A stretch of DNA of 33,790 nt from a virus. Both the position numbers and the translations under genes were made by a program. The stretch lies in the IMG/VR virus record IMGVR_UViG_3300020419_000051, positions 1 through 33,790 of that record. The stretch is one strand, 5' to 3'. This document shows positions 3,114 through 27,951 of this stretch, piece after piece (positions within the stretch are counted from its first letter, which is position 1; every line of letters begins with the position of its first letter). The notes beneath the pieces were generated by a model. It did no database searches. It had not been told where the DNA came from and saw nothing but the letters and a program-made list of their open reading frames with translations.

Positions 3114-3451
3114 TAGACCTCTATACCCGTGTGTGGAGCTAGTTTTTTATTATCTGCGGCTAGTTTTACGTCTTTATCTGCTAACCAAGTATTAAATAGT
3201 TCTCTAGCTTTTTCTTTATCATCACAAACTTTTACAAACTCTAACCATTTTTCTTTCGCTATTCTATTGCCGTTGTAATAGTCCCCGTCTCCTAATTTAC
3301 ATCGAGTGATTATTTGATGAACTCTTTGTTTAGTTATGTTATGTCGTAGACCTATCTCTTGTAGAGTAGACTTATTTTTTCTCCACTCTTGATAGATACT
3401 TCTATAACGTACATCATTTTCTTTAGCTTTCTGGTGGTTTATTCCTTGCAT
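3113..3451 (-). CDS. HTH protein resembling sigma-70 region 4
   Basis: About 112 aa from ATG at 3451, which overlaps the polymerase stop as TAATG with GAGGAG upstream. An upstream start at 3475 is possible but needs a 25-base overlap. The segment STLQEIGLRHNITKQRVHQI (about 28-47 from the chosen start) matches the region-4 helix-turn-helix consensus (tLqEIg...nvTrqRVhQI). The rest is charged and helical. There is no region 2, so it is not a full sigma factor. It could be a transcription regulator or a terminase-small-like DNA binder. The pairing with the recurring dyad promoters is suggestive only. Confidence 0.75.
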   Translation of the reverse strand: MQGINHQKAKENDVRYRSIYQEWRKNKSTLQEIGLRHNITKQRVHQIITRCKLGDGDYYNGNRIAKEKWLEFVKVCDDKEKARELFNTWLADKDVKLAADNKKLAPHTGIEV

Positions 3452-5310
3452 TATTGCTCCTCTGTTTGACCCCATGATGGACCAAGTTCATAGTCAACTA
3501 ATAAAGGTACAACTAAGTCTACACAATCTCGCATAATCTCACATACCTTCTTAGCTTCGGTTTTATCTTTTACAGATATATCGACTTCATCGTGTATTTG
3601 TAGATGTGGAATAATTCCTTCTTTCCACAACTCCAACATAGCTAACTTAGTCATATCTGCTGCTGAACCCTGAATCAATCTATTCAGAGCTTTATAAGTG
3701 AAAGACCTTTTTAGACTTTCACCATATTCACTTTTAGCTTCTTCTAATGGTAGAGGTGTAGTTCTTTCGAACCTGCTCTCCCATAAGTCAAACCTACATC
3801 GTCTACCCCCTAAAGTCTTTATATATCCCCTGTCTGTAGCTATCCGAGTACATTGGTCTTGTAGCCCTTTTATAAAAGGTACTTTTTCATGGTATTGGTC
3901 GAACAGCTTTTGTGCTTCGCTATCATCTAGACCTAATTCATTAATTAATTTTTCTTTACCCATTCCATAGCTAAGTCCTAGATTTATCGTCTTAGCTTGT
4001 TTACGTGGTATATTAGCCATATCTGCAACTATTTGATGGAAGTCTGCATTTCTTTCGGTATACTCTATGACTGCTTCTTTAGCTCCCGCTAAGTTCATTT
4101 TATCAGCATAATGTACAGTTAATCTAGGTTCTTGTTGTGAGTAATCAAATACACCCCATTCACAATTTTCTTCAGGTATAAAGATAGAGCGTATCATATC
4201 TCCAATCTCTGGGTCTCTTGCAGGTACTTGTTGTAGATTAGGATTACTGTAGCTAAACCGACCACTGACCGTGCCCCCTCTATCACTACGTAATGGATGA
4301 GCCTCTGCATGTATACGACCTTCGTGTGAATGTTCTAATATCATTTTATCTATAAAAGTAGTCCTAGCTTTATTTAATTTTCTGGCTTCTACGATTAATC
4401 TAGGTAGTTCATGGGTATGGCTTTCTAGCCACTGCCTTTGAAAAGAAGCCATACCTTTTTCAGTTCTAGGATAGAATAATTTATTTTTATCGAATATATC
4501 TTGTAGAGAAGCATTAGCCCATAGATTGACTTCCGAACCATACTTCCTTTTTATTTCTACTTGAATCTTTTGCTCTTTTTTAGATAGTTCTTTCGAGATA
4601 GAGTGAGCTTTTTCTTCATCTACTCTTACACCTCGCCACCTCATTTCTATAAGTAGAGGTATTAAACTAGTTTCTAATTCATATATTTTTGATAAGTCTT
4701 GACTTTTTATTTCTTGTTTTAATTTGTCCCAAACTTTTAATGTAAGTGCTGCGTCTTGTTCACCATAAGGTCCAACATATTTAGAATGTAGTTTATACAT
4801 TTCTGATTTAGGATTTATACCATAAGCGAGTGCTGCGTCTTGTAACAAAGACTCATCTTTTTTATTATTACAATAACTCTCACCTAACGAATCTAGTGAA
4901 TACGAACGTCTGTTCTCATCGATGAGAGGTGCTGCAAACATAGTATCTACTATATTCCCACACACCTCTACACCTTCTCTTTTTAACCATCCAACATCGT
5001 ACAATGAATTATGAAAGACCACGTCACGTTTATTGGATGAAAGAGTTTTAGACAGCCATTTGAGGACTAACCCCTCGTCTAAGTTGCCCCCGCCTTGATG
5101 TCTAAAAGGAAAATAACCTTTCCAATCATCAGTAGCTACACCCACACCTATAACATAGCCATCACCTGTAGCCCAACCTGGACCCTTGACTAATAAGTTA
5201 GGGTCACAGGTTTCTAAATCTACTGCGATAGTTTTTGTCTCGGGTATATTAGGAAATAACTCAGGTACTTCCCAATTACTCTTAGGTGCGAACATAGGTT
5301 CTTGAATCAC
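3451..5310 (-). CDS. polA: family A DNA polymerase with 3'-5' exonuclease
   Basis: 619 aa, the replicative DNA polymerase. The DEDD exonuclease domain has VDLET (30-34), FHNSLYDVGWL and YGEQDAAL. Polymerase motif A is FDYSQQEPR (388-396), motif B RKQAKTINLGLSYG (436-449) and motif C HDE (573-575). The 5' nuclease domain is absent, as in most phage PolA proteins. The residue matching E. coli Phe762 is Leu444. That position controls dideoxynucleotide discrimination and speed, and the Leu variants are reported to be slower and more accurate. The start is GTG, overlapping the previous gene's stop as GTGA; an ATG five codons on is an alternative. Confidence 0.95.
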   Translation of the reverse strand: MIQEPMFAPKSNWEVPELFPNIPETKTIAVDLETCDPNLLVKGPGWATGDGYVIGVGVATDDWKGYFPFRHQGGGNLDEGLVLKWLSKTLSSNKRDVVFHNSLYDVGWLKREGVEVCGNIVDTMFAAPLIDENRRSYSLDSLGESYCNNKKDESLLQDAALAYGINPKSEMYKLHSKYVGPYGEQDAALTLKVWDKLKQEIKSQDLSKIYELETSLIPLLIEMRWRGVRVDEEKAHSISKELSKKEQKIQVEIKRKYGSEVNLWANASLQDIFDKNKLFYPRTEKGMASFQRQWLESHTHELPRLIVEARKLNKARTTFIDKMILEHSHEGRIHAEAHPLRSDRGGTVSGRFSYSNPNLQQVPARDPEIGDMIRSIFIPEENCEWGVFDYSQQEPRLTVHYADKMNLAGAKEAVIEYTERNADFHQIVADMANIPRKQAKTINLGLSYGMGKEKLINELGLDDSEAQKLFDQYHEKVPFIKGLQDQCTRIATDRGYIKTLGGRRCRFDLWESRFERTTPLPLEEAKSEYGESLKRSFTYKALNRLIQGSAADMTKLAMLELWKEGIIPHLQIHDEVDISVKDKTEAKKVCEIMRDCVDLVVPLLVDYELGPSWGQTEEQ

Positions 5311-5519
5311 TTTTTCTTTTTAGTCTGTAGCTTAGTCTTTTTAGCTCTAGGTTTCTTACCTTTAGCCCTAACTACACCAACTTGTTCAGCTTTTTCTGGT
5401 GCTTTAGGTCTATGTTTCTTTTCCTCGAACTTAGGTAAATCGACTGCTGCTTCATCTAACGCTTCATCGACTTTATCGTTTTTCTTAAAAAATTTAAGAA
5501 CTTTAGCTATTATCGTCAT
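5307..5519 (-). CDS. small protein with highly basic tail, 70 aa
   Basis: The first half is amphipathic and acidic (KVDEALDEAAVDLPKFEEK). The second half is almost entirely Lys/Arg/Pro/Ala and ends LQTKKKK. Such tails usually bind nucleic acid or another acidic partner without a fixed structure. No family is recognised. It has a good ribosome binding site (GAGGAGAGTCAAC-ATG) and starts inside the end of the 5503-5859 gene. Its stop overlaps the GTG of polA, so it may be a polymerase-coupled DNA-binding accessory; that is inference from position and charge. Confidence 0.7.
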   Translation of the reverse strand: MTIIAKVLKFFKKNDKVDEALDEAAVDLPKFEEKKHRPKAPEKAEQVGVVRAKGKKPRAKKTKLQTKKKK

Positions 5520-5859
5520 GTTGACTCTCCTCTAAAATAGTTGTATTTAACATATCATGTATAGTTTCAGGATTAGACTGGTCTAATATATGTTGTTCAC
5601 AAAGTAACAAATATCTACGTAAATCACGTATATCATCTAGTAGACCTGCTTCACCTTTAAATGCTTCTCCAGCTTCAAAGATATCCCAACCATGTTTTTC
5701 TGATTGGTGTTCTATCCTATCGAACTTACGAGCTAACATCATAAAAGCTCCTACACCTCCTCTACGTTTCCAAGAATCTCCATATGAAGTTTCTGCTTTC
5801 TTCAACGCTTCAAGGTCTCTTTGTGCTATGTCTTTCATAGCTTCCCACTTACTTGTCAT
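5503..5859 (-). CDS. conserved phage protein, possibly Nmad1/DUF1599 (MazG-like)
   Basis: 118 aa, all-helical. Key features are YGDSW (26-30), GGVGAFMMLARKFDRIE (34-50) and DDIRDLRRY (75-83). The order YGxSW, then a K/R-x-DRIE helix, then DDxxDLxxY resembles Nmad1 (formerly DUF1599), an all-alpha MazG-like domain linked by comparative genomics to phage base modification. It lies directly downstream of the thymidylate-synthase homologue, separated by a strong AAGGAG site, which fits a nucleotide-handling role. The family link is tentative; it may instead be a distinct phage family of unknown function. Confidence 0.6.
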   Translation of the reverse strand: MTSKWEAMKDIAQRDLEALKKAETSYGDSWKRRGGVGAFMMLARKFDRIEHQSEKHGWDIFEAGEAFKGEAGLLDDIRDLRRYLLLCEQHILDQSNPETIHDMLNTTILEESQHDDNS

Positions 5860-5868
5860 AAGTACTCC

Positions 5869-6930
5869 TTATTTATTATTTAAATTATGTAGCTTATCTC
5901 TTTTGGTTATCCAGTTGAAACAAGCCACCATCCAATCTTGAGCAGTAATTTTAGATACATACTCATACGCTTTATCGTAATCTCTCTCTTTATGAGCACT
6001 AAACGCTTTCACCATAGGCATAGCTATATCTTTGAAAGTAGGCTCGTTAAAATTATAGTTAGATAAATCTATTTTCTTTTCTGTATGTTCAGGAACATCA
6101 TCTATATCAAGCCACCATAAATTAAAAGGACTAAAAAATATTCGTAATTCTTTATCAAATATTTCCTTATCTATATAGAGTGGACTATATTCATAACCGT
6201 CACAGTAATCAGAACTTAAATGTCTATATGTTAAAGGGTCAAGTTCTGCTCCCTTTATTCTATCCCAAACTTTATTTTCATAGACGTGTAAGCTATCGCT
6301 AATCTGTGTATAGACTCCTATATCGACTCCTACAGCTAAAGCAATATATTCTTGAAGGATAGACATATGTACTGCATTAGCACCATAAGCACCCCACACC
6401 ATATCGTTAGAGCGATTACAGACTGTCATATTTAATTTTCCATTTCTGATTTTAAAATAAATATTCGTATTACAAGGTACATCTAAAGACTTATCAGCTA
6501 AATCTTTTATACCCCACATCTGTAAAACTGCACGTCTATCGTTAGGATTTTTAATTAATATATCTATAATTTGTTCTATTTGGTCTTCACCAAAATAACT
6601 TCTCCACCTATTACCATACGCAGCATTTAAAGTCCTACCGTCATCAGAAAAATCTTTCATAGATTTTACGAAATATGTAAGTGGTGCTAAATCATTATTA
6701 CCATTCAACATCCATAGACTTTCTATAAAATGAAAAAATGGGTTAGCGTCTCGTTTAGTACAAAATAAAACTCGCTCCCAAGGGTTCTGATAAACAGTAG
6801 TTAATGGTTCATTTAGTTCTAACGTTTTACCGTTTCTACTATCTTGTTCTATATAGTTATCTGGAAAACAAAATAAATCAATCCCTCTTTCTAGGGCTTC
6901 ATTTACATTCCTTACCTTTAACGTATTCAT
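5869..6930 (-). CDS. thymidylate synthase superfamily; probable dUMP hydroxymethylase
   Basis: 353 aa. The TS fold is clear: NPFFHFIESLWMLNG (63-77), AYGNRW (104-109), DRRAVLQMW (131-139), catalytic Cys153 in DVPCN, CNRSNDMVWGAYGAN (171-185) and SLHVYENK (213-220). TS-superfamily enzymes transfer a one-carbon unit from methylene-THF to C5 of dUMP or dCMP. An Asn rather than Asp in the GAYGAN segment favours a uracil substrate. The residue after the Cys is Asn, not the His of canonical TS. The adjacent HMUDK_hel-type gene argues for 5-hydroxymethyl-dUMP as product. A plain dTMP synthase cannot be excluded. It starts at an ATGA junction. Confidence 0.88.
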   Translation of the reverse strand: MNTLKVRNVNEALERGIDLFCFPDNYIEQDSRNGKTLELNEPLTTVYQNPWERVLFCTKRDANPFFHFIESLWMLNGNNDLAPLTYFVKSMKDFSDDGRTLNAAYGNRWRSYFGEDQIEQIIDILIKNPNDRRAVLQMWGIKDLADKSLDVPCNTNIYFKIRNGKLNMTVCNRSNDMVWGAYGANAVHMSILQEYIALAVGVDIGVYTQISDSLHVYENKVWDRIKGAELDPLTYRHLSSDYCDGYEYSPLYIDKEIFDKELRIFFSPFNLWWLDIDDVPEHTEKKIDLSNYNFNEPTFKDIAMPMVKAFSAHKERDYDKAYEYVSKITAQDWMVACFNWITKRDKLHNLNNK

Positions 6931-7148
6931 ACGGGTGAGTTATGCATTCCTGTTATTTCATCTATAAGAAACCCTATCTCTGATTCCGTAAGCACGGGTA
7001 TCTTCCTTTTTATAAACTCTACCGCTTGAGTATAGTCTGCGGGTACGTTTAGAAAATACGCTACTTCTACGAACTGAGTATAATATTTATCTACTTGCTC
7101 ACCCCATGTATCTAAGAGTTCTATGGCTAATTCATTCATTTTGCCCAT
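6927..7148 (-). CDS. hypothetical protein, 73 aa, in the modification cluster
   Basis: A helical acidic protein (LLDTWGEQVDKYYTQFVEVAYFLN...) of no recognised family. It is sandwiched between the pyrophosphorylase-like gene and the TS homologue. The ATG at 7148 has AAGGAGAAAGCAT upstream and overlaps the previous gene by 13 bases. An ATG at 7139 would give an ATGA junction and a protein three residues shorter. It ends with ATGA overlapping the TS start. Co-transcription suggests a role linked to nucleotide metabolism, but nothing in the sequence shows it. Confidence 0.7.
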   Translation of the reverse strand: MGKMNELAIELLDTWGEQVDKYYTQFVEVAYFLNVPADYTQAVEFIKRKIPVLTESEIGFLIDEITGMHNSPV

Positions 7149-8080
7149 ATGCTTTCTCCTTCTTCTATATCTTCCACTATAGGAAGATGTTTATTATGTT
7201 TATAAATAGACCTTGTTCTTCCTTCCTCGTTTAATATACGAGAATACTTATCGAACTCACAAAGTCCTCCTTCTACTTCTCTCATTTCAAAGTTATGTTT
7301 TAAGTCATACATACCTTTATTTAATACCCACCAATTATGGTTATTAACTTTTACTATGTCGTAGAGCTCTTGCATTTCAGAGTTCCAATCATGACTTCGT
7401 TTTGAAAAAGTTAGTTCTCTGCCCGTCAACCTATTTAGACCTCGCATTGCACCTGGACCAGCGTTAGCCCACGAACAAATATCTGTAGCTTCGTTTAAGA
7501 AATGAGTAAATCGTAAATCTGTAACTACTTCGTATGCCATAAATGGACCCATGTATGGATATTCTTTTATAAGTTCCCATGCTTTTTGTAATGACCCACC
7601 GTCTTTTTCTTTATACTTATAAAGTTCTTCTAAGATATAATCTTTAGCGTTCCACATATGAGTTATAGATTCAGCGACTCCTGTAACTTTATCCATACGG
7701 TTAGGTGTCTTAATAATATAAGCACCCGTAATCCATTTAGGTTGTACTCGTATAAGTTCTATAGCTTTTTCTCTATCCCACTCTATATGTAAGTTGTTAT
7801 CTAATAGAGTTCTACCCGTTTCTATAAGATTAAACCACCTAAAGATAATCGTAGCCATAAATACTTCGGGTTTATCTTTTAATGGGTCTCTTATATGAGT
7901 TCTTAACCAACGGGTAGTTCTATCATCTTCTCTGTATACTTGACAAAACTTAAACTTTCTAAGTATCTCGTCTTCTGTCCAAGGCGGTTTATCTTTATAG
8001 TATTCTTTACACACTCGTATACCTTCCCTTTCGGAAATCCAATACTTATAAAGTTCTACTTGTTCTGGTATAAAGGTCAT
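7136..8080 (-). CDS. HMUDK_hel / alpha-glutamyl-putrescinyl-thymine pyrophosphorylase-type protein
   Basis: 314 aa. Diagnostic motifs are PPWTEDEIL (32-40), FCQVYREDDRTTRW (45-58), WITGAYII (116-123), GPFMAYEVVTDLRF (178-191) and WANAGPGAMRGLNRL (204-218). These match the helical, DNA-glycosylase-derived family described by Iyer and colleagues for thymine hypermodification; a related helical domain is fused to 5-hydroxymethyl-dU DNA kinases. The family acts after 5hmU enters DNA, activating or pyrophosphorylating the hydroxymethyl group. No P-loop kinase domain is present here. The exact clade and reaction are not readable. TAATG joins it to the methyltransferase upstream. Confidence 0.8.
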   Translation of the reverse strand: MTFIPEQVELYKYWISEREGIRVCKEYYKDKPPWTEDEILRKFKFCQVYREDDRTTRWLRTHIRDPLKDKPEVFMATIIFRWFNLIETGRTLLDNNLHIEWDREKAIELIRVQPKWITGAYIIKTPNRMDKVTGVAESITHMWNAKDYILEELYKYKEKDGGSLQKAWELIKEYPYMGPFMAYEVVTDLRFTHFLNEATDICSWANAGPGAMRGLNRLTGRELTFSKRSHDWNSEMQELYDIVKVNNHNWWVLNKGMYDLKHNFEMREVEGGLCEFDKYSRILNEEGRTRSIYKHNKHLPIVEDIEEGESIWAK

Positions 8081-8937
8081 TACTTCTTACGTATTCTCCA
8101 TGCACAATTATTAGCTACTGATGGATAAAAAGTCGCTGCTGCCATTCTCAAAAACTGCTTACCGAATCTATCTTCTAGTTGGCTAAATTGTTTATGAGTC
8201 CATCCTCCATATTCTCTATGGTGATTCTCAGGGTCATTCATAAACTTTTTCAATCTAGGAAGTTGTATAAATGTTCCAGTAACAGCTTCTATCTCAAAAT
8301 TTCTTTCTAGTTCTTCTTTTAGTTCTTCGAAACCCCACTCATATACGTGGTCTTCGGGAAGTTTATCGTTAGAGCCGTCGTGGTTAGGAGTAGATACATA
8401 TCCTAATGCTCCTGGTCTCATAACCCTAGCAACGTCATCTAACCAAGCAGGAACAAACTCCCTACCCATGTGTTCTATAACTTCCGTAGACCAAAAGAAA
8501 TCTATACTTTCATCGTCTAATTTAAATATAGGGTCTACTGTTAAATCTTGTATACGTATCTCACCATTAAATATCTTAAACCAAGCAGAGTCTTTTAGTT
8601 CTCCACCCGCATTAGACCAATAAGGGTTTTCCATCTCACATGCAGGGTCTATATCATACCCAACATAAGAGCTAATTATGTCAGTCTTTTTTATTACATA
8701 TGCCTTATAAAGACAACGCAAAGCCCAACACTCACCACAACCAACTTCAAAAGTATTAAGTGGTCTACCTAATCTTTTAGCTTCGTCTATACATAATGAA
8801 GCTATTTTATCGAAACGACTCATATGAGCTAACTCATCAGGTCTCCAATTACCTAGAATACCTGCTGACGCTAAATCCATTCTAGTATTTTTACTATCGT
8901 TTTCATTGACAGTAAGTTTTCTTCTTATTGATGACAT
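8080..8937 (-). CDS. class I SAM-dependent methyltransferase
   Basis: 285 aa from ATG at 8937, a TAATG junction preceded by GGGAGGTG; a TTG five codons upstream is less likely. Motif I is FEVGCGECWALR (about 63-74 from this start), followed by VGYDID (motif II). Further on are FFWSTEVIEHM and a post-motif segment VARVMRPGALGYVSTPNHDG, as in the Methyltransf_11/25-type small-molecule fold. There is no target-recognition domain and no DPPY or PCQ motif, so it is not a standard DNA methylase. Its position between two modification-cluster genes suggests it methylates a nucleotide or a modified base, but the substrate is unknown. Confidence 0.85.
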   Translation of the reverse strand: MSSIRRKLTVNENDSKNTRMDLASAGILGNWRPDELAHMSRFDKIASLCIDEAKRLGRPLNTFEVGCGECWALRCLYKAYVIKKTDIISSYVGYDIDPACEMENPYWSNAGGELKDSAWFKIFNGEIRIQDLTVDPIFKLDDESIDFFWSTEVIEHMGREFVPAWLDDVARVMRPGALGYVSTPNHDGSNDKLPEDHVYEWGFEELKEELERNFEIEAVTGTFIQLPRLKKFMNDPENHHREYGGWTHKQFSQLEDRFGKQFLRMAAATFYPSVANNCAWRIRKK

Positions 8938-9422
8938 TACACCTCCCACCAATCTGGTTTATCTCTACCCTTTTCCCACTTAGCATAATGTTTTTCGTGT
9001 ATAACATAATCCCTATAAGCAAGAATTGGATTCTCATGTTTATACTCATCAGGCATTGCCTGAGGTAATTCTGTTAATCCTGCTATCCGTATATTTGCAG
9101 GTAAATAAGAAAGTGGTTCTTCTAATTTTATAAAACTTAAATGTTCTTTGCCGTATCTTCTAGTGTATTCAGAACATAAAGCGATAAAATGACTATACAG
9201 CCATAAATAATTATCGCTAGTAGTTCTAGCCCATATCGTACATGGGTGATTTTTATATGCTGTTTTATAAATACCATTAGCGTCACACCAATCTTCATCG
9301 GAGTGTACTCGATGAGCGGTACATAACATCTGAGCAGATTCTAAAGGCATTTTTACTATCAGCTTATCAGGTAAAAACTCTGCCGCTTCTTTAGGACTTT
9401 TAGATACATAAAAAATATTCAT
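8937..9422 (-). CDS. conserved phage protein of unknown function (MNIFY... family), 161 aa
   Basis: The sequence MNIFYVSKSP...KMPLESAQMLCTAHR (24-38) followed by YKNHPCTIWARTTSDNYLWL (56-75), an EYTRRYGKEH helix (86-95) and PQAMPDEYK (119-127) is a widespread marine phage family. Conserved His, Asn, Cys and Trp residues suggest an enzyme rather than a structural protein. I recall some database entries linking it to DNA-glycosylase-like domains, but I cannot verify that. Its setting, between the primase-helicase block and the methyltransferase, is compatible with nucleotide or DNA modification. Its start overlaps the previous stop as ATGA. Confidence 0.8.
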   Translation of the reverse strand: MNIFYVSKSPKEAAEFLPDKLIVKMPLESAQMLCTAHRVHSDEDWCDANGIYKTAYKNHPCTIWARTTSDNYLWLYSHFIALCSEYTRRYGKEHLSFIKLEEPLSYLPANIRIAGLTELPQAMPDEYKHENPILAYRDYVIHEKHYAKWEKGRDKPDWWEV

Positions 9423-9520
9423 TTCTTTACCTTTATCCTACGCGGTGGTTTCTTTTCTTTATTTTTTATTCTCTCCATCATCTCCATGTGTTCCTTCATG
9501 GTCATAGTTTTATTAGCCAT
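9419..9520 (-). CDS. very small basic protein, 33 aa
   Basis: Starts at a TAATG junction with the zinc-ribbon gene and ends at an ATGA junction with the 161-aa gene, so coupling on both sides supports it. It begins MANKTMTMKEHMEMMERI, Met-rich and helical, and ends in a basic tail (KKPPRRIKVKK). No family is recognised. It is short enough to be missed by default gene callers. Confidence 0.6.
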   Translation of the reverse strand: MANKTMTMKEHMEMMERIKNKEKKPPRRIKVKK

Positions 9521-9675
9521 TAACCACGTTCTCTTTTAATTAAATCAGATATACGTGTTGGTATGACAATATGGGTATTGCAAAAAGTACAACACCTTCC
9601 CTCGTCTTTTACAGGACTCGGATTATGTCCGAACTCCTCATCTTTTTTACGATTACATATAACACAATTTATCAT
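9520..9675 (-). CDS. small zinc-ribbon protein, 51 aa
   Basis: The protein has CVIC at 4-7 and RCCTFCNTH at 27-35. This gives a CxxC...CCxxCxxH set that should bind one zinc ion. The pattern C..C...FGHNP.P......GRCC..CN...VIP.R is a recurrent small phage protein of unknown role. The start is strong: AAAGGAGATTAAA-ATG, just downstream of a promoter at 9698-9726. It heads the transcript that includes the methyltransferase, pyrophosphorylase-like and TS genes. A DNA- or protein-binding adaptor role is likely but unproven. Confidence 0.75.
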   Translation of the reverse strand: MINCVICNRKKDEEFGHNPSPVKDEGRCCTFCNTHIVIPTRISDLIKRERG

Positions 9676-9697: not shown

Positions 9698-9726
9698 AGT
9701 TTACTTTATATTTATTACAAAGTAAA
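9698..9726 (-). promoter_or_regulatory. sigma70-type promoter (copy B of the dyad promoter)
   Basis: Minus strand: -35 TTTACT (9721-9726), 17-base spacer, -10 TAAACT (9698-9703) preceded by G. It is a nearly symmetrical dyad (TTTACTTT-N11-AAAGTAAA) and reads TTTACT-N17-TAAAAG on the plus strand. It lies in the 58-base gap after the helicase stop and would drive the whole thymine-modification and polymerase transcript. Confidence 0.7.
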
Positions 9727-14752: not shown

Positions 14753-16195
14753 ATGAAATATAAATTTAAGACCGAACCTTACGGTCATCAATTAGAGGCA
14801 CTGAAACGCTCTTGGGATAAAGAGGAGTTTGCATATTTTATGGAAATGGGGACAGGTAAATCTAAAGTCCTTATTGATAATATAGCTGTACTTTACGATA
14901 GGGGTAAAATCAACGCGGCTATAATTATCGCACCAAAAGGTGTTTATGAAAATTGGTCGGGCAGAGAAATACCTACACATTTACCTGACCACGTAATACA
15001 TAGGGTGGGTGTATGGAACCCGAACCCTACTAAAAAAGAGAAAGAAAAATTATTAAGTTTATTTGACCGTACTTTAGATTTAAAAATATTAGTTATAAAT
15101 GTTGAAGCATTTAGTACGAAGAAAGGTGTAACGTTTGTTGATAAATTTATCAATACCCACTTCCCACTGATAGCGGTTGACGAATCAACGACTATAAAAA
15201 ATCCTAAAGCACAACGAACCAAGAACCTTTTAAAACTAGCAGTGAATTGTAAGTATCGTAGAATACTAACTGGATTTCCAGTTACTCAATCACCGTTAGA
15301 TTTATTTAGCCAAAGTGAGTTTCTAGCACCTTCGTTATTGGGCTATGGTTCGTATTACTCTTTCCAAAATAGATATGCTCAAATTATAAATAGGGCTATG
15401 GGACAAAGAAGTTTTAGACAAGTTGTAGGGTATCAACACTTAGATGAGCTTAGTAATAAAGTAAATAACTTTTCGTACAGAGTTCTCAAAAAAGAATGTT
15501 TAGACTTACCTGATAAGGTGTATATGCGAAGGGAAGTAGAACTTACTCCTGAACAAAAGAAAGTCTATAACGAAATAAAAGATTATGCCCTAGCAGAACT
15601 AGAAGATAATGAAGTTGTAAGTGTAACTTCTGTCCTTACACAAATACTTAGACTTCATCAAGTTGTATGTGGTTTTGTAAAACATGATAAAGGAGAAGAA
15701 GTTGAAATAAAAAATAACCGCGTTGATGAATTATTAAATATATTAGCAGAGGTGCAAGGTAAAACTATTATTTGGGCTAACTATCAATACGATATACGAA
15801 GAATATTAAAAGTATTAGAAGAAACTGTAGGAGCCGAAGCGGTAGCTACTTATTATGGCGATACTCCTGAGGAAGATAGACAAAATATAATTAATAAATT
15901 TCAAGACCCTGATTCAGAACTGAAATATTTAATCAGTAATGTACAAACTGGTGGGTATGGTATAACGCTTACTGCGGCTAATACAGTTGTTTATTATTCT
16001 AATAATTATGATTTAGAAAAAAGATTACAATCGGAAGACCGTGCTCATAGGATAGGACAAAGCAATAAAGTCACATATATTGATTTAGTTTCTAAAGGTA
16101 CTGTTGATGAAAAGATAGTAAAAGCATTAAGAAGTAAATTAAACCTAGCTCAAGAAGTGTTGGGCGATGAAAAATGGAGAGATTGGATTGCTTAA
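14753..16195 (+). CDS. SNF2-family DEAD/H-like helicase/translocase
   Basis: 480 aa. Motif I MEMGTGKSK (30-38), motif II VDEST (about 142-146, a DEAH variant followed by TIKNPKAQRT), motif III LTGFPV, motif V GGYGITLTAAN and motif VI RLQSEDRAHRIGQ are all visible, the last being the SNF2 signature. These enzymes translocate on double-stranded DNA. In phages they are linked to replication, recombination or counter-defence. The ribosome binding site is weak (AAGAAAG). It is the first of only two plus-strand genes, and its stop lies inside the coding frame of the dioxygenase that follows. Confidence 0.93.
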   Translation: MKYKFKTEPYGHQLEALKRSWDKEEFAYFMEMGTGKSKVLIDNIAVLYDRGKINAAIIIAPKGVYENWSGREIPTHLPDHVIHRVGVWNPNPTKKEKEKLLSLFDRTLDLKILVINVEAFSTKKGVTFVDKFINTHFPLIAVDESTTIKNPKAQRTKNLLKLAVNCKYRRILTGFPVTQSPLDLFSQSEFLAPSLLGYGSYYSFQNRYAQIINRAMGQRSFRQVVGYQHLDELSNKVNNFSYRVLKKECLDLPDKVYMRREVELTPEQKKVYNEIKDYALAELEDNEVVSVTSVLTQILRLHQVVCGFVKHDKGEEVEIKNNRVDELLNILAEVQGKTIIWANYQYDIRRILKVLEETVGAEAVATYYGDTPEEDRQNIINKFQDPDSELKYLISNVQTGGYGITLTAANTVVYYSNNYDLEKRLQSEDRAHRIGQSNKVTYIDLVSKGTVDEKIVKALRSKLNLAQEVLGDEKWRDWIA

Positions 16196-16769
16196 ATTTT
16201 ATAAAGGAGCTATGAAGGGTTACGACCCTCTTATAGATAAATGGGATAAACCTACTAAACGTATTTACGAAGGTAGAACTATCGAAGGTAGAAAAACTAG
16301 AGGTTTTGGTGATAGTAAATTTTCGTATGCGGGTAGAAGTTATAATCCAGACGCTTGGACACAACCTATGAAATATATCAAAGGTAATTTAGAAACTTTT
16401 ATACGGAGAGAACTAGATATAGAAGTTGATTTTAAATTTTGTTTATGTGGATATTATGGTACTGACGGTAAAGGTATACCGCACCATTCCGATACAGTAC
16501 CTACGTATAACGATTTAGTTGTATCGCTTTCTTTTGGTGCACCAAGAATATTTCAATGGCATGAATATGGGTATCATATAAAGAAAGAAACTAATACAAG
16601 TAAAACAAATATCTATACTACAGATACTCGTAAAGAAACTAATTATTTAATGGAAGACGGGGATTTATTTATATTCGATGGACACTCACAGATGTTCGCT
16701 ACTCATAGTGTGCCTGACGTAGAAGGTGGGGGAGAAAGAGTTAATTTAACTTTTAGAACTGGAATTTAA
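16167..16769 (+). CDS. AlkB-like 2OG-Fe(II) dioxygenase
   Basis: 200 aa. The AlkB core shows LCGYYGTDGKGIPHHSD (iron HxD: His107, Asp109), SLSFGAPRIFQW, a GDLFIFDG strand, the distal iron His180 in THSVP and RVNLTFR with Arg191 and Arg197 for 2-oxoglutarate. AlkB enzymes oxidise N-alkylated bases in DNA or RNA. Here it could repair DNA, reverse host methylation or contribute to base hypermodification. It overlaps the helicase by 29 bases. An ATG at 16212 behind AAAGGAG is another possible start, giving 185 aa. Its stop overlaps that of the convergent late gene by three bases. Confidence 0.88.
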   Translation: MKNGEIGLLKFYKGAMKGYDPLIDKWDKPTKRIYEGRTIEGRKTRGFGDSKFSYAGRSYNPDAWTQPMKYIKGNLETFIRRELDIEVDFKFCLCGYYGTDGKGIPHHSDTVPTYNDLVVSLSFGAPRIFQWHEYGYHIKKETNTSKTNIYTTDTRKETNYLMEDGDLFIFDGHSQMFATHSVPDVEGGGERVNLTFRTGI

Positions 16770-26677: not shown

Positions 26678-26686
26678 TGCATTAAC
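26673..26686. repeat. perfect 14-bp palindrome GTTAATGCATTAAC
   Basis: Exact inverted symmetry over 14 bases. It covers the stop codon of the 2OG-oxygenase and overlaps the -35 of the promoter at 26649-26677, which makes it a good operator candidate. With no loop it is not a terminator. Confidence 0.75.
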
Positions 26687-27266
26687 GCCAAGCGGGTCCT
26701 TCTATCCAAGTTACAAGACTTTTCCTAATTCCTTTAGTAACAGGACTTACTTCGTGTGGTAAAAAAGAGGGAAAAATTAAAACCCTACCTTTTTGTCTTA
26801 AAATATCTTTATTAGGAGGTTCTTTGATAATACTGTCATCGAATTCAAAATTACCTCCCTCATATTCGTTTGAATCAGATAACTGTATGGTCATACTAAG
26901 TTTTCTATCGTACATTTCTCCTCTGCCTATGAAACTATCTATATGTTTATGATAAAAACCTTTATTTGCTGCTAAGTATTCTGTATATTGAATATTAAAT
27001 ATTCTTTCAATATCTAGCCCAAAATGCTCTCTATTAATATCAACAAATAAATTTGTACAAAGATTAGTTAATTTAGCTGTATCTTCTGTACGTGGGTCTA
27101 TCCAACGAACTTGAGACCTTCTAATATCTTTTTCTTGTTTAGAATCCTTTCCTATTTCTCCACCTACGACTGCAATTTCCTCTGGAAATTTCAATGCCAT
27201 AATTTTTATATCTTCAATAATTTGTTCTGGTAGTACTTCAGGAAGCATGAAACAAAGAGATTTCAT
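26682..27266 (-). CDS. 2OG-Fe(II) oxygenase, prolyl-4-hydroxylase/PKHD type
   Basis: About 194 aa from ATG at 27266, just after the nuclease stop (TAATATG); an upstream start at 27308 would overlap 41 bases. The HxD iron pair is YHKHIDSF (His108, Asp110). Then follow RKLSMTIQLSDSNEYEGGNF, the distal iron His171 in FPSFLPHEV and Arg181 in GIRKSLVTW for 2-oxoglutarate. This is the PKHD / P4H phage-type family, often found in marine phages. Its target is unknown; protein hydroxylation or DNA-base oxidation are both plausible. Confidence 0.88.
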   Translation of the reverse strand: MKSLCFMLPEVLPEQIIEDIKIMALKFPEEIAVVGGEIGKDSKQEKDIRRSQVRWIDPRTEDTAKLTNLCTNLFVDINREHFGLDIERIFNIQYTEYLAANKGFYHKHIDSFIGRGEMYDRKLSMTIQLSDSNEYEGGNFEFDDSIIKEPPNKDILRQKGRVLIFPSFLPHEVSPVTKGIRKSLVTWIEGPAWR

Positions 27267-27267
27267 A

Positions 27268-27951
27268 TTAATCTGTAATTCTTTCTTCGCATAACCCTTC
27301 TTTACCAAAATGACACCAACGACATTTCCATTTATGTGGGTTAGCGGGGAACTCTGTAGCTGTAGTCATATCTATAGCTCTAGCATTTATACGGTCTCTT
27401 TTTAAAATTATTGTTTGTGTATCGTAAACGAACTTACTTATTTTATTATGGTCTAAATACCACATCTCAGTAATTATTTCTTCTAATTCTGGAAACCTTT
27501 TTAAAGCTATAGAACCATACAATTCACATTGTTCTCTATGAGCTTCTTCATTACCTTCGAACTTTCCTGTTTTAAAATCAATAACTCTAGCTTGTTTAGA
27601 AATACCTTCTTCATATACAAAAGCGTCTACTTTAGCTCTGCCCCAAGTATTATAATCAAACCAACCTGTACGTTTCCATTCCTCATCCCAAGCCCAATCT
27701 TCTTCACAAAGCACGTGTCCTCTTTCGTGTAGTTCTTTTAGTTCTTTAAAATTATCTTCTAATCCTTTTATTTCTTCTGGTATTTCTTGATGAAATCCAC
27801 GAATATATTCTTCACAAAGTTTATGGATATGTTTACCTCTATCCATCGCTGGACTTCCAGGCTCTTTTAATTTTTTAACAAATTTAAATTCTGCTTGTTT
27901 CGGACATTTTTCAAAACAACTTAAACGGCTATACGACCATTGATTTATCAT
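27268..27951 (-). CDS. Cas4/RecB-like PD-(D/E)XK nuclease with Fe-S cysteines
   Basis: 227 aa. N-terminal SYSRLSCFEKCPKQAEFKF (6-24), GKHIHKLCEEYI (39-50), catalytic AKVDAF (Asp109) and VIDFKTGK (Asp125, Lys127). A Fe-S-type cysteine set is Cys16 with Cys210, Cys213 and Cys221 (KCRWCHFGKEGLCEE). This matches PDDEXK_1 / Cas4 / RecB C-terminal exonucleases. In phages such nucleases process ends for recombination or packaging. It heads its own transcript: promoter at 27970-27997 and CAAAAGGAGATTAAC-ATG. It is unusual to find it inside a late structural block. Confidence 0.9.
   Translation of the reverse strand: MINQWSYSRLSCFEKCPKQAEFKFVKKLKEPGSPAMDRGKHIHKLCEEYIRGFHQEIPEEIKGLEDNFKELKELHERGHVLCEEDWAWDEEWKRTGWFDYNTWGRAKVDAFVYEEGISKQARVIDFKTGKFEGNEEAHREQCELYGSIALKRFPELEEIITEMWYLDHNKISKFVYDTQTIILKRDRINARAIDMTTATEFPANPHKWKCRWCHFGKEGLCEERITD

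Follow-up and report, generated by a model that had tools for sequence, protein, structure and literature searches.

Which modified base, if any, does the minus-strand gene cluster at positions 5503–9675 of the viral record IMG/VR IMGVR_UViG_3300020419_000051 specify, and which of its products would decorate that base? The DNA examined was a 33,790-nt stretch of this record (the window), and relatives were taken from IMG/VR contigs; megablast of the whole window against phages gave no match. An initial annotation had proposed a thymine hypermodification operon, and all of the minus-strand open reading frames (ORFs) that it named between 5503 and 9675 were present at the positions given. The gene content suggests a kinase-free pathway, which we put at about an even chance of being correct, in which 5-hydroxymethyl-deoxyuridine (5hmdU) presented by an HMUDK_hel protein is O-methylated to 5-(methoxymethyl)-dU. 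What is observed here is the identity of the genes, their conserved order, the exclusivity of the partner genes and the absence of both a kinase and an amino acid:DNA transferase (ADDT). The genes central to the proposal, with the neighbouring polymerase gene, are as follows.

5869–6930, minus strand: predicted dUMP hydroxymethylase of the thymidylate synthase (TS) superfamily (PF00303, PHROG 5131, active-site signature, tree)
7136–8080, minus strand: HMUDK_hel/aGPT-PPlase1 protein, resembling helix-hairpin-helix (HhH) glycosylases and predicted to act on 5hmdU in DNA (PF18723)
8080–8937, minus strand: class I S-adenosylmethionine (SAM)-dependent methyltransferase (MT), the predicted decorating enzyme (Methyltransf_23/11, fold, context)
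3451–5310, minus strand: family A DNA polymerase (PF00476, E 1.2e-63), which regularly adjoins the cassette

The TS homologue and the HMUDK_hel protein

The TS homologue matched Pfam PF00303 (E 2.3e-25) and PHROG 5131 (E 1.8e-105) and has the TS fold with its catalytic cysteine, Cys153, which is invariant. An alignment with SPO1 gp29, M6, PaMx11, T4 gp42 and td showed that it carries PCN and RSND..WGAYGAN, motifs of the same kind as in M6, PaMx11 and SPO1 gp29 (an annotated dUMP hydroxymethylase), with Asn rather than Asp at the uracil-selecting position. dTMP synthases carry PCH and PFN instead, a signature that the window protein does not have. Phylogenetic analysis, which the initial annotation had proposed for this protein, placed it with HMUDK_hel-linked TS homologues and apart from td and BSP36; grouping with genuine dTMP synthases was not obtained. 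Active-site signature and tree placement thus agree in favouring a dUMP hydroxymethylase over a dTMP synthase, as first suggested, and the protein is predicted to make 5hmdUMP. An ordinary dTMP synthase, with normal thymine in the DNA and with HMUDK_hel and the MT serving repair or regulation, would fit the name thymidylate synthase under which Pfam and NCBIfam list the protein, and real thymidylate synthases are carried by many phages. This explanation is judged very improbable given the signature of SPO1 gp29 and M6-type enzymes in place of PCH...PFN, and a score of 103 bits, far below the NCBIfam thymidylate synthase cut-off of 175 bits.

The 314-aa protein had been labelled as an HMUDK_hel/aGPT-pyrophosphorylase type, and the Pfam search proposed for it gave a significant full-length match to PF18723/HMUDK_hel (E 1.7e-42; 146 bits against a curated cut-off of 25; positions 4–278 of 281), and PHROGs bore out the assignment. 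Identity to M6 gp55 and PaMx11 gp50 was 37–42 %. The nearest solved fold to its AlphaFold2 model (pLDDT 91.5) was that of PaMx11 gp46, a 5-PmdU glycinyltransferase of the ADDT family with a structure in the PDB (Foldseek E 0.034, prob 0.99), and OGG1-type HhH DNA glycosylases matched the model weakly. Kinship with ADDT was considered and found no support in profile–profile comparison, the link being one of fold only; PDB sequence searches with the HMUDK_hel and MT profiles gave no match for either. About 40 residues of HMUDK_hel, many of them charged, are invariant across all partner types described below. The sequence contains no Walker A motif.

Methyltransferase linkage and the absence of a kinase

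The SAM methyltransferase assignment was borne out by matches to Methyltransf_23 (E 1.5e-6) and Methyltransf_11, and by a model (pLDDT 80) with a class I SAM fold of the RebM/SpnF/CFA-synthase type (Foldseek E ~1e-10). Translation starts at a conserved ATG at 8937, and the SAM-binding motif VGCGE / GYDIDP lies in a Rossmann-like fold. None of the motifs of classical DNA base methyltransferases (C5, N4 or N6; DPPY/NPPY or PCQ) was present in the MT sequence, which has TEVIEHM and STPNHDG at this position. Searching with the window MT gave no match among phages (tblastn, 1e-3), and no relative was confirmed in 84,980 bacterial and archaeal genomes. The first 31 residues, nearly invariant across ~20 divergent sequences yet predicted to be disordered, may form an interaction segment that binds a partner or substrate.

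The gene order UvrD – (DenV) – MT – HMUDK_hel – (73 aa) – TS – 118 aa – PolA recurred in IMG/VR contigs. In the first contig set the MT was adjacent in 76 loci and the TS homologue lay just downstream in 76, with identities of ~78 % for the MT, 62 % for HMUDK_hel and 55 % for TS. HMUDK_hel was adjacent in all 80 loci retrieved by an MT-seeded scan; the reciprocal HMUDK_hel-seeded scan found the MT in 77 of 80, the remaining three contigs ending there. The MT lies immediately upstream, its frame overlapping that of HMUDK_hel at 72 of 77 loci. Similarly, 78 of the 80 loci of the window type had a pyrimidine hydroxymethylase near the MT; in the two exceptions the contig ends just after HMUDK_hel. 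This strict co-occurrence favours the MT as the decorating partner, one of the options named by the initial annotation. Because neighbouring genes in the window overlap by 1–13 bases and their order is kept in ~76 related contigs, co-transcription of the cassette is plausible. The promoter previously placed at 9698–9726 did not gain support: a consensus scan did not return the site, which matches ~8 of 12 consensus bases by eye and is weak and not above chance (21 promoter-like sites observed against 33.8 in shuffled DNA).

The window had been reported to contain no P-loop 5hmdU kinase, and the same was found in complete relatives. Two near-identical contigs closely related to the window phage, G001 and G002 (61 and 63 kb), are circular permutations of each other and are therefore essentially complete. 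In both, the UvrD helicase is the sole protein with a recognisable Walker A, as in three other contigs of 58–68 kb; incidental Walker-A-like motifs without kinase similarity occurred in a 176-aa ORF of G002 (GISPYGKS) and a 368-aa ORF of G005 (GLSGGKS). For hidden Markov model (HMM) searches, PF18748 alone was judged too insensitive (two of three kinase-type controls found), and a custom kinase model was added, which scores kinase loci at 1e-55 or better. Neither a kinase nor an ADDT was detected in 20 MT-type contigs of 53–84 kb; for the ADDT (PF18724) this was 0 of 20, against 3 of 3 kinase-type controls. A hidden kinase in the complete relatives was thus rejected by both the Walker-A scan and the HMM searches.

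Comparison with phages M6 and PaMx11 places this absence in context; statements on M6 and ViI chemistry rest on PMC6449724, PMC7653180, Pfam and PDB names and general knowledge. Like the window phage, M6 and PaMx11 carry a dUMP-hydroxymethylase-type TS and HMUDK_hel/aGPT-PPlase1 beside a family A DNA polymerase. They also encode a small P-loop protein with a Walker A motif directly upstream of HMUDK_hel, whereas the window type, compared with these phages and with Salmonella ViI, has neither P-loop 5hmdU kinase nor ADDT and has the MT in the kinase slot. The P-loop proteins adjoining HMUDK_hel, M6 gp54 and PaMx11 gp49 (L002:7339-7902 and L003:7348-7917), are annotated as terminase small subunit; this label is likely a misannotation, the proteins being kinase-like as expected of 5hmdU kinases. 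Activation of the base to a pyrophosphate ester, part of the scheme first put forward, is not supported here, given that HMUDK_hel has no Walker A and that the M6/PaMx11 kinase is a separate protein absent from the complete relatives. Since the kinase is separate and missing, the visible core steps are hydroxymethylation and the HMUDK_hel step, not activation. The classical M6/ViI pathway, amino acid transfer included, might still run if the 5hmdU kinase is divergent or comes from the host, and in M6 and PaMx11 the same TS and HMUDK_hel families do occupy the corresponding place next to PolA; we give it very little credence, as neither gene was found in complete relatives while the models recovered both in controls.

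The two-gene core itself has been described before. HTVC023P-type pelagiphages share with the window phage a TS and aG/PT-PPlase1 pair near PolA, for which thymidine hypermodification was already proposed in 2022 (PMC9599517). The text of that paper nowhere mentions a methyltransferase, and the one 023Pt genome inspected had no TS/aGPT pair between helicase and PolA. The pair of TS and aGPT-PPlase1 is therefore already known, and the MT partner in place of the kinase appears to be unreported.

Partner exchange, the AXL3 branch and the proposed chemistry

Partners of HMUDK_hel were counted by scanning with a more distant HMUDK_hel as query and then classifying distinct loci by profile; sampling was biased to relatives of the queries. 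MT-type cassettes comprised 118 loci (99 with full flanks), none with a kinase or ADDT. P-loop kinase cassettes comprised 13 loci, mostly with ADDT and one with TAGT, and none had the MT. The remainder were TAGT glycosyltransferase cassettes (20 loci), cassettes with a GT-B glycosyltransferase and an FkbM methyltransferase (nine loci) and cassettes with a glycosyltransferase and a radical SAM protein (five loci), usually with a nucleotidyltransferase–cupin protein. A 41-row HMUDK_hel tree required at least seven partner changes; the MT type formed two supported groups on it, and a single origin was not rejected (p-AU 0.395). Because kinase-free cassettes carry glycosyltransferases in place of the MT, the decorating enzyme appears to be swappable between phages on a conserved 5hmdU platform.

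The TAGT cassettes (L316-L342), the GT-B/FkbM cassettes (L263-L271) and the cultured Microbacterium phage Morrigan share with the window type their TS and HMUDK_hel families and, often, the 118-aa protein, and they have no HMUDK match; they differ in that a glycosyltransferase, not the MT, would decorate. The kinase-free TAGT cassettes (L316:6819-7613 and equivalents) combine HMUDK_hel and TS with a TAGT protein related to T-even beta-glucosyl-HMC-alpha-glucosyltransferases, which predicts glycosylated 5hmdU. Those with FkbM methyltransferase and GT-B glycosyltransferase beside HMUDK_hel (e.g. L081:10769-13111) would be predicted to yield an O-methylated sugar on 5hmdU. Where HMUDK_hel is accompanied by both a radical SAM/SPASM enzyme and a glycosyltransferase-like protein (L272, L275, L277, L290 and L295, most with a cytidylyltransferase–cupin fusion), the genes point to a possible sugar-based modification involving radical chemistry. 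In Morrigan (L345:4277-7869) a divergent TS homologue accompanies HMUDK_hel and TAGT, with no HMUDK match among the neighbours tested.

Homologues of the MT also occurred in a second setting. Among 50,697 phage records only four contained one, namely AXL3 (two records), PW916 and ctUtU524 (L356, L355 and L357, respectively), and AXL3 and PW916 were found only with an MT of a more divergent clade as query. These phages encode the MT beside a nucleoside triphosphate pyrophosphatase (NTP-PPase), a TS-family hydroxymethylase and a dCMP deaminase. Further AXL3-type contigs (L358-L386) had the hydroxymethylase nearby in 29 of 29 cases, mostly with the NTP-PPase, and all 29 hydroxymethylases showed PCT, with Asp occupying the uracil-selecting position, like the dCMP hydroxymethylase of T4. 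The AXL3 type is thus like the window type in placing a homologous MT (27 % identity over 246 aa, E 1e-15) beside a TS-family hydroxymethylase, and differs in its dCMP-type Asp motif and in the absence of HMUDK_hel, which was not found in AXL3, PW916 or ctUtU524. Of 37 restriction enzymes, 35 fail to cut AXL3 DNA; the sites of all 35 contain G/C, and cutting occurs only at A/T-only sites (PMC7504290), a pattern consistent with cytosine modification. Judged from its genes, the AXL3-type cassette may direct a cytosine hypermodification so far unreported, and it occurs in cultured phages.

These results suggest a three-step pathway for the window phage. The TS homologue, to judge from its active-site signature, would turn dUMP into 5-hydroxymethyl-dUMP, which the phage polymerase would incorporate in place of thymidine; the family A enzyme would have to copy with 5hmdUTP. 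HMUDK_hel, glycosylase-like and kept in every 5hmdU cassette, would then recognise or present 5hmdU in DNA. Lastly, the MT would cap the 5-hydroxymethyl oxygen to give 5-(methoxymethyl)-dU, a step suggested by its strict genomic association and by homologues paired with dCMP-type hydroxymethylases; methylation could take place at the level of DNA or of the nucleotide. The simplest activity to assume is O-methylation, because the 5-hydroxymethyl is the one group common to the dU and dC branches. The broader proposal, held more tentatively and at clearly less than even chances, is that this phage MT family O-methylates 5-hydroxymethylpyrimidines (-dU here, -dC in the AXL3 type), while HMUDK_hel would serve generally to recognise 5hmdU for interchangeable catalytic partners (kinase, MT or glycosyltransferases).

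Several points weigh against O-methylation of HMUDK_hel-presented 5hmdU. The product is a prediction from gene content, and the association counts are not phylogenetically independent. The MT has a broad small-molecule/RNA-type class I fold, which leaves the acceptor unfixed. Recognition or presentation of 5hmdU is a proposed role for HMUDK_hel, and the Pfam name of the protein ties it to the kinase. On the AXL3 side, 5hmC alone could explain the restriction resistance, the MT occurs without HMUDK_hel, so that a single enzyme composed of both is not required, and the NTP-PPase and a thymidylate-kinase-like gene beside the MT allow methylation at the nucleotide level.

Two further explanations draw on the same evidence. 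HMUDK_hel might itself be a transferase that adds a small group to 5hmdU, which the MT then methylates, for example at N or O, giving a base larger than 5-methoxymethyl-dU. The glycinyltransferase as nearest solved fold and the invariant, often charged residues, which suggest catalysis of its own, lend this some weight, but an ADDT-like reaction needs a leaving group, which 5hmdU lacks when no kinase is present, profile similarity between HMUDK_hel and ADDT is negligible, and the related MT family is found in dC-type phages that have no HMUDK_hel; we consider it unlikely. Less likely again is that the DNA holds only 5hmdU and that the MT, merely linked, targets host RNA, protein or a metabolite. 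Such a target would suit the breadth of the MT fold, and 5hmdU alone is a viable DNA base in phage SP8 (PMC7653180). Against it stand the adjacency in 80 of 80 loci with overlapping frames and the hydroxymethylases that, separately, accompany the MT homologues of 29 of 29 further contigs and of the three named phages.

If the O-methylation pathway is correct, methylation of 5-hydroxymethyl groups would add a capping chemistry to phosphorylation with amino acid addition and to glycosylation, and HMUDK_hel, named after the kinase, would be recast as a module retained when the kinase is gone. 5-Methoxymethyl-dU would be a new DNA base: to our knowledge neither it nor 5-methoxymethyl-dC has a natural report, and nothing relevant on natural 5-methoxymethyl pyrimidines was found in open-access papers. 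AXL3, which is in culture and encodes an MT homologue, allows a direct test: its DNA, resistant to restriction, bears a modification that is so far unexplained (PMC7504290).

Smaller genes and other window features

The remaining genes of the cassette are short.

5503–5859, minus strand: conserved 118-aa protein, common to kinase-free cassettes of every partner type (19-cassette comparison)
6927–7148, minus strand: 73-aa protein of no assigned family (45–66 % identity at some of the 80 loci)
8937–9422, minus strand: DenV/Pyr_excise-like protein of 161 aa (PF03013, PHROG 624)
9520–9675, minus strand: Cys-rich 51-aa protein, a possible zinc ribbon and accessory gene (CxxC pairs)

The 161-aa protein, first described as a conserved phage protein, was assigned to the pyrimidine-dimer-glycosylase (DenV) family (PF03013, E 2.7e-10; PHROG 624, E 2.3e-55). 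Many MT-type relatives lack it at this place, and it is probably not needed for modification. The 73-aa protein, already listed as unknown, had no Pfam or PHROG family above cut-off and is kept in many, not all, close relatives. For two others the earlier labels lacked significant support: no Pfam match, to Nmad1 or otherwise, was supported for the 118-aa protein even when 19 homologues were scanned, and the 51-aa protein, patchy among relatives, has the Cys pairs of the suggested zinc ribbon with no significant family match. When 19 cassettes representing different partner types were compared, the 118-aa protein showed 39–70 % identity and ~31 invariant columns; it is possibly nucleotide-related.

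Elsewhere, the window encodes two 2-oxoglutarate (2OG)-Fe(II) oxygenases, one AlkB-like at 16167–16769 (PF13532, 2.2e-15) and one at 26682–27308 (PF13640, 6e-16). AlkB-like copies were also located near UvrD in the relatives L009 and L012.

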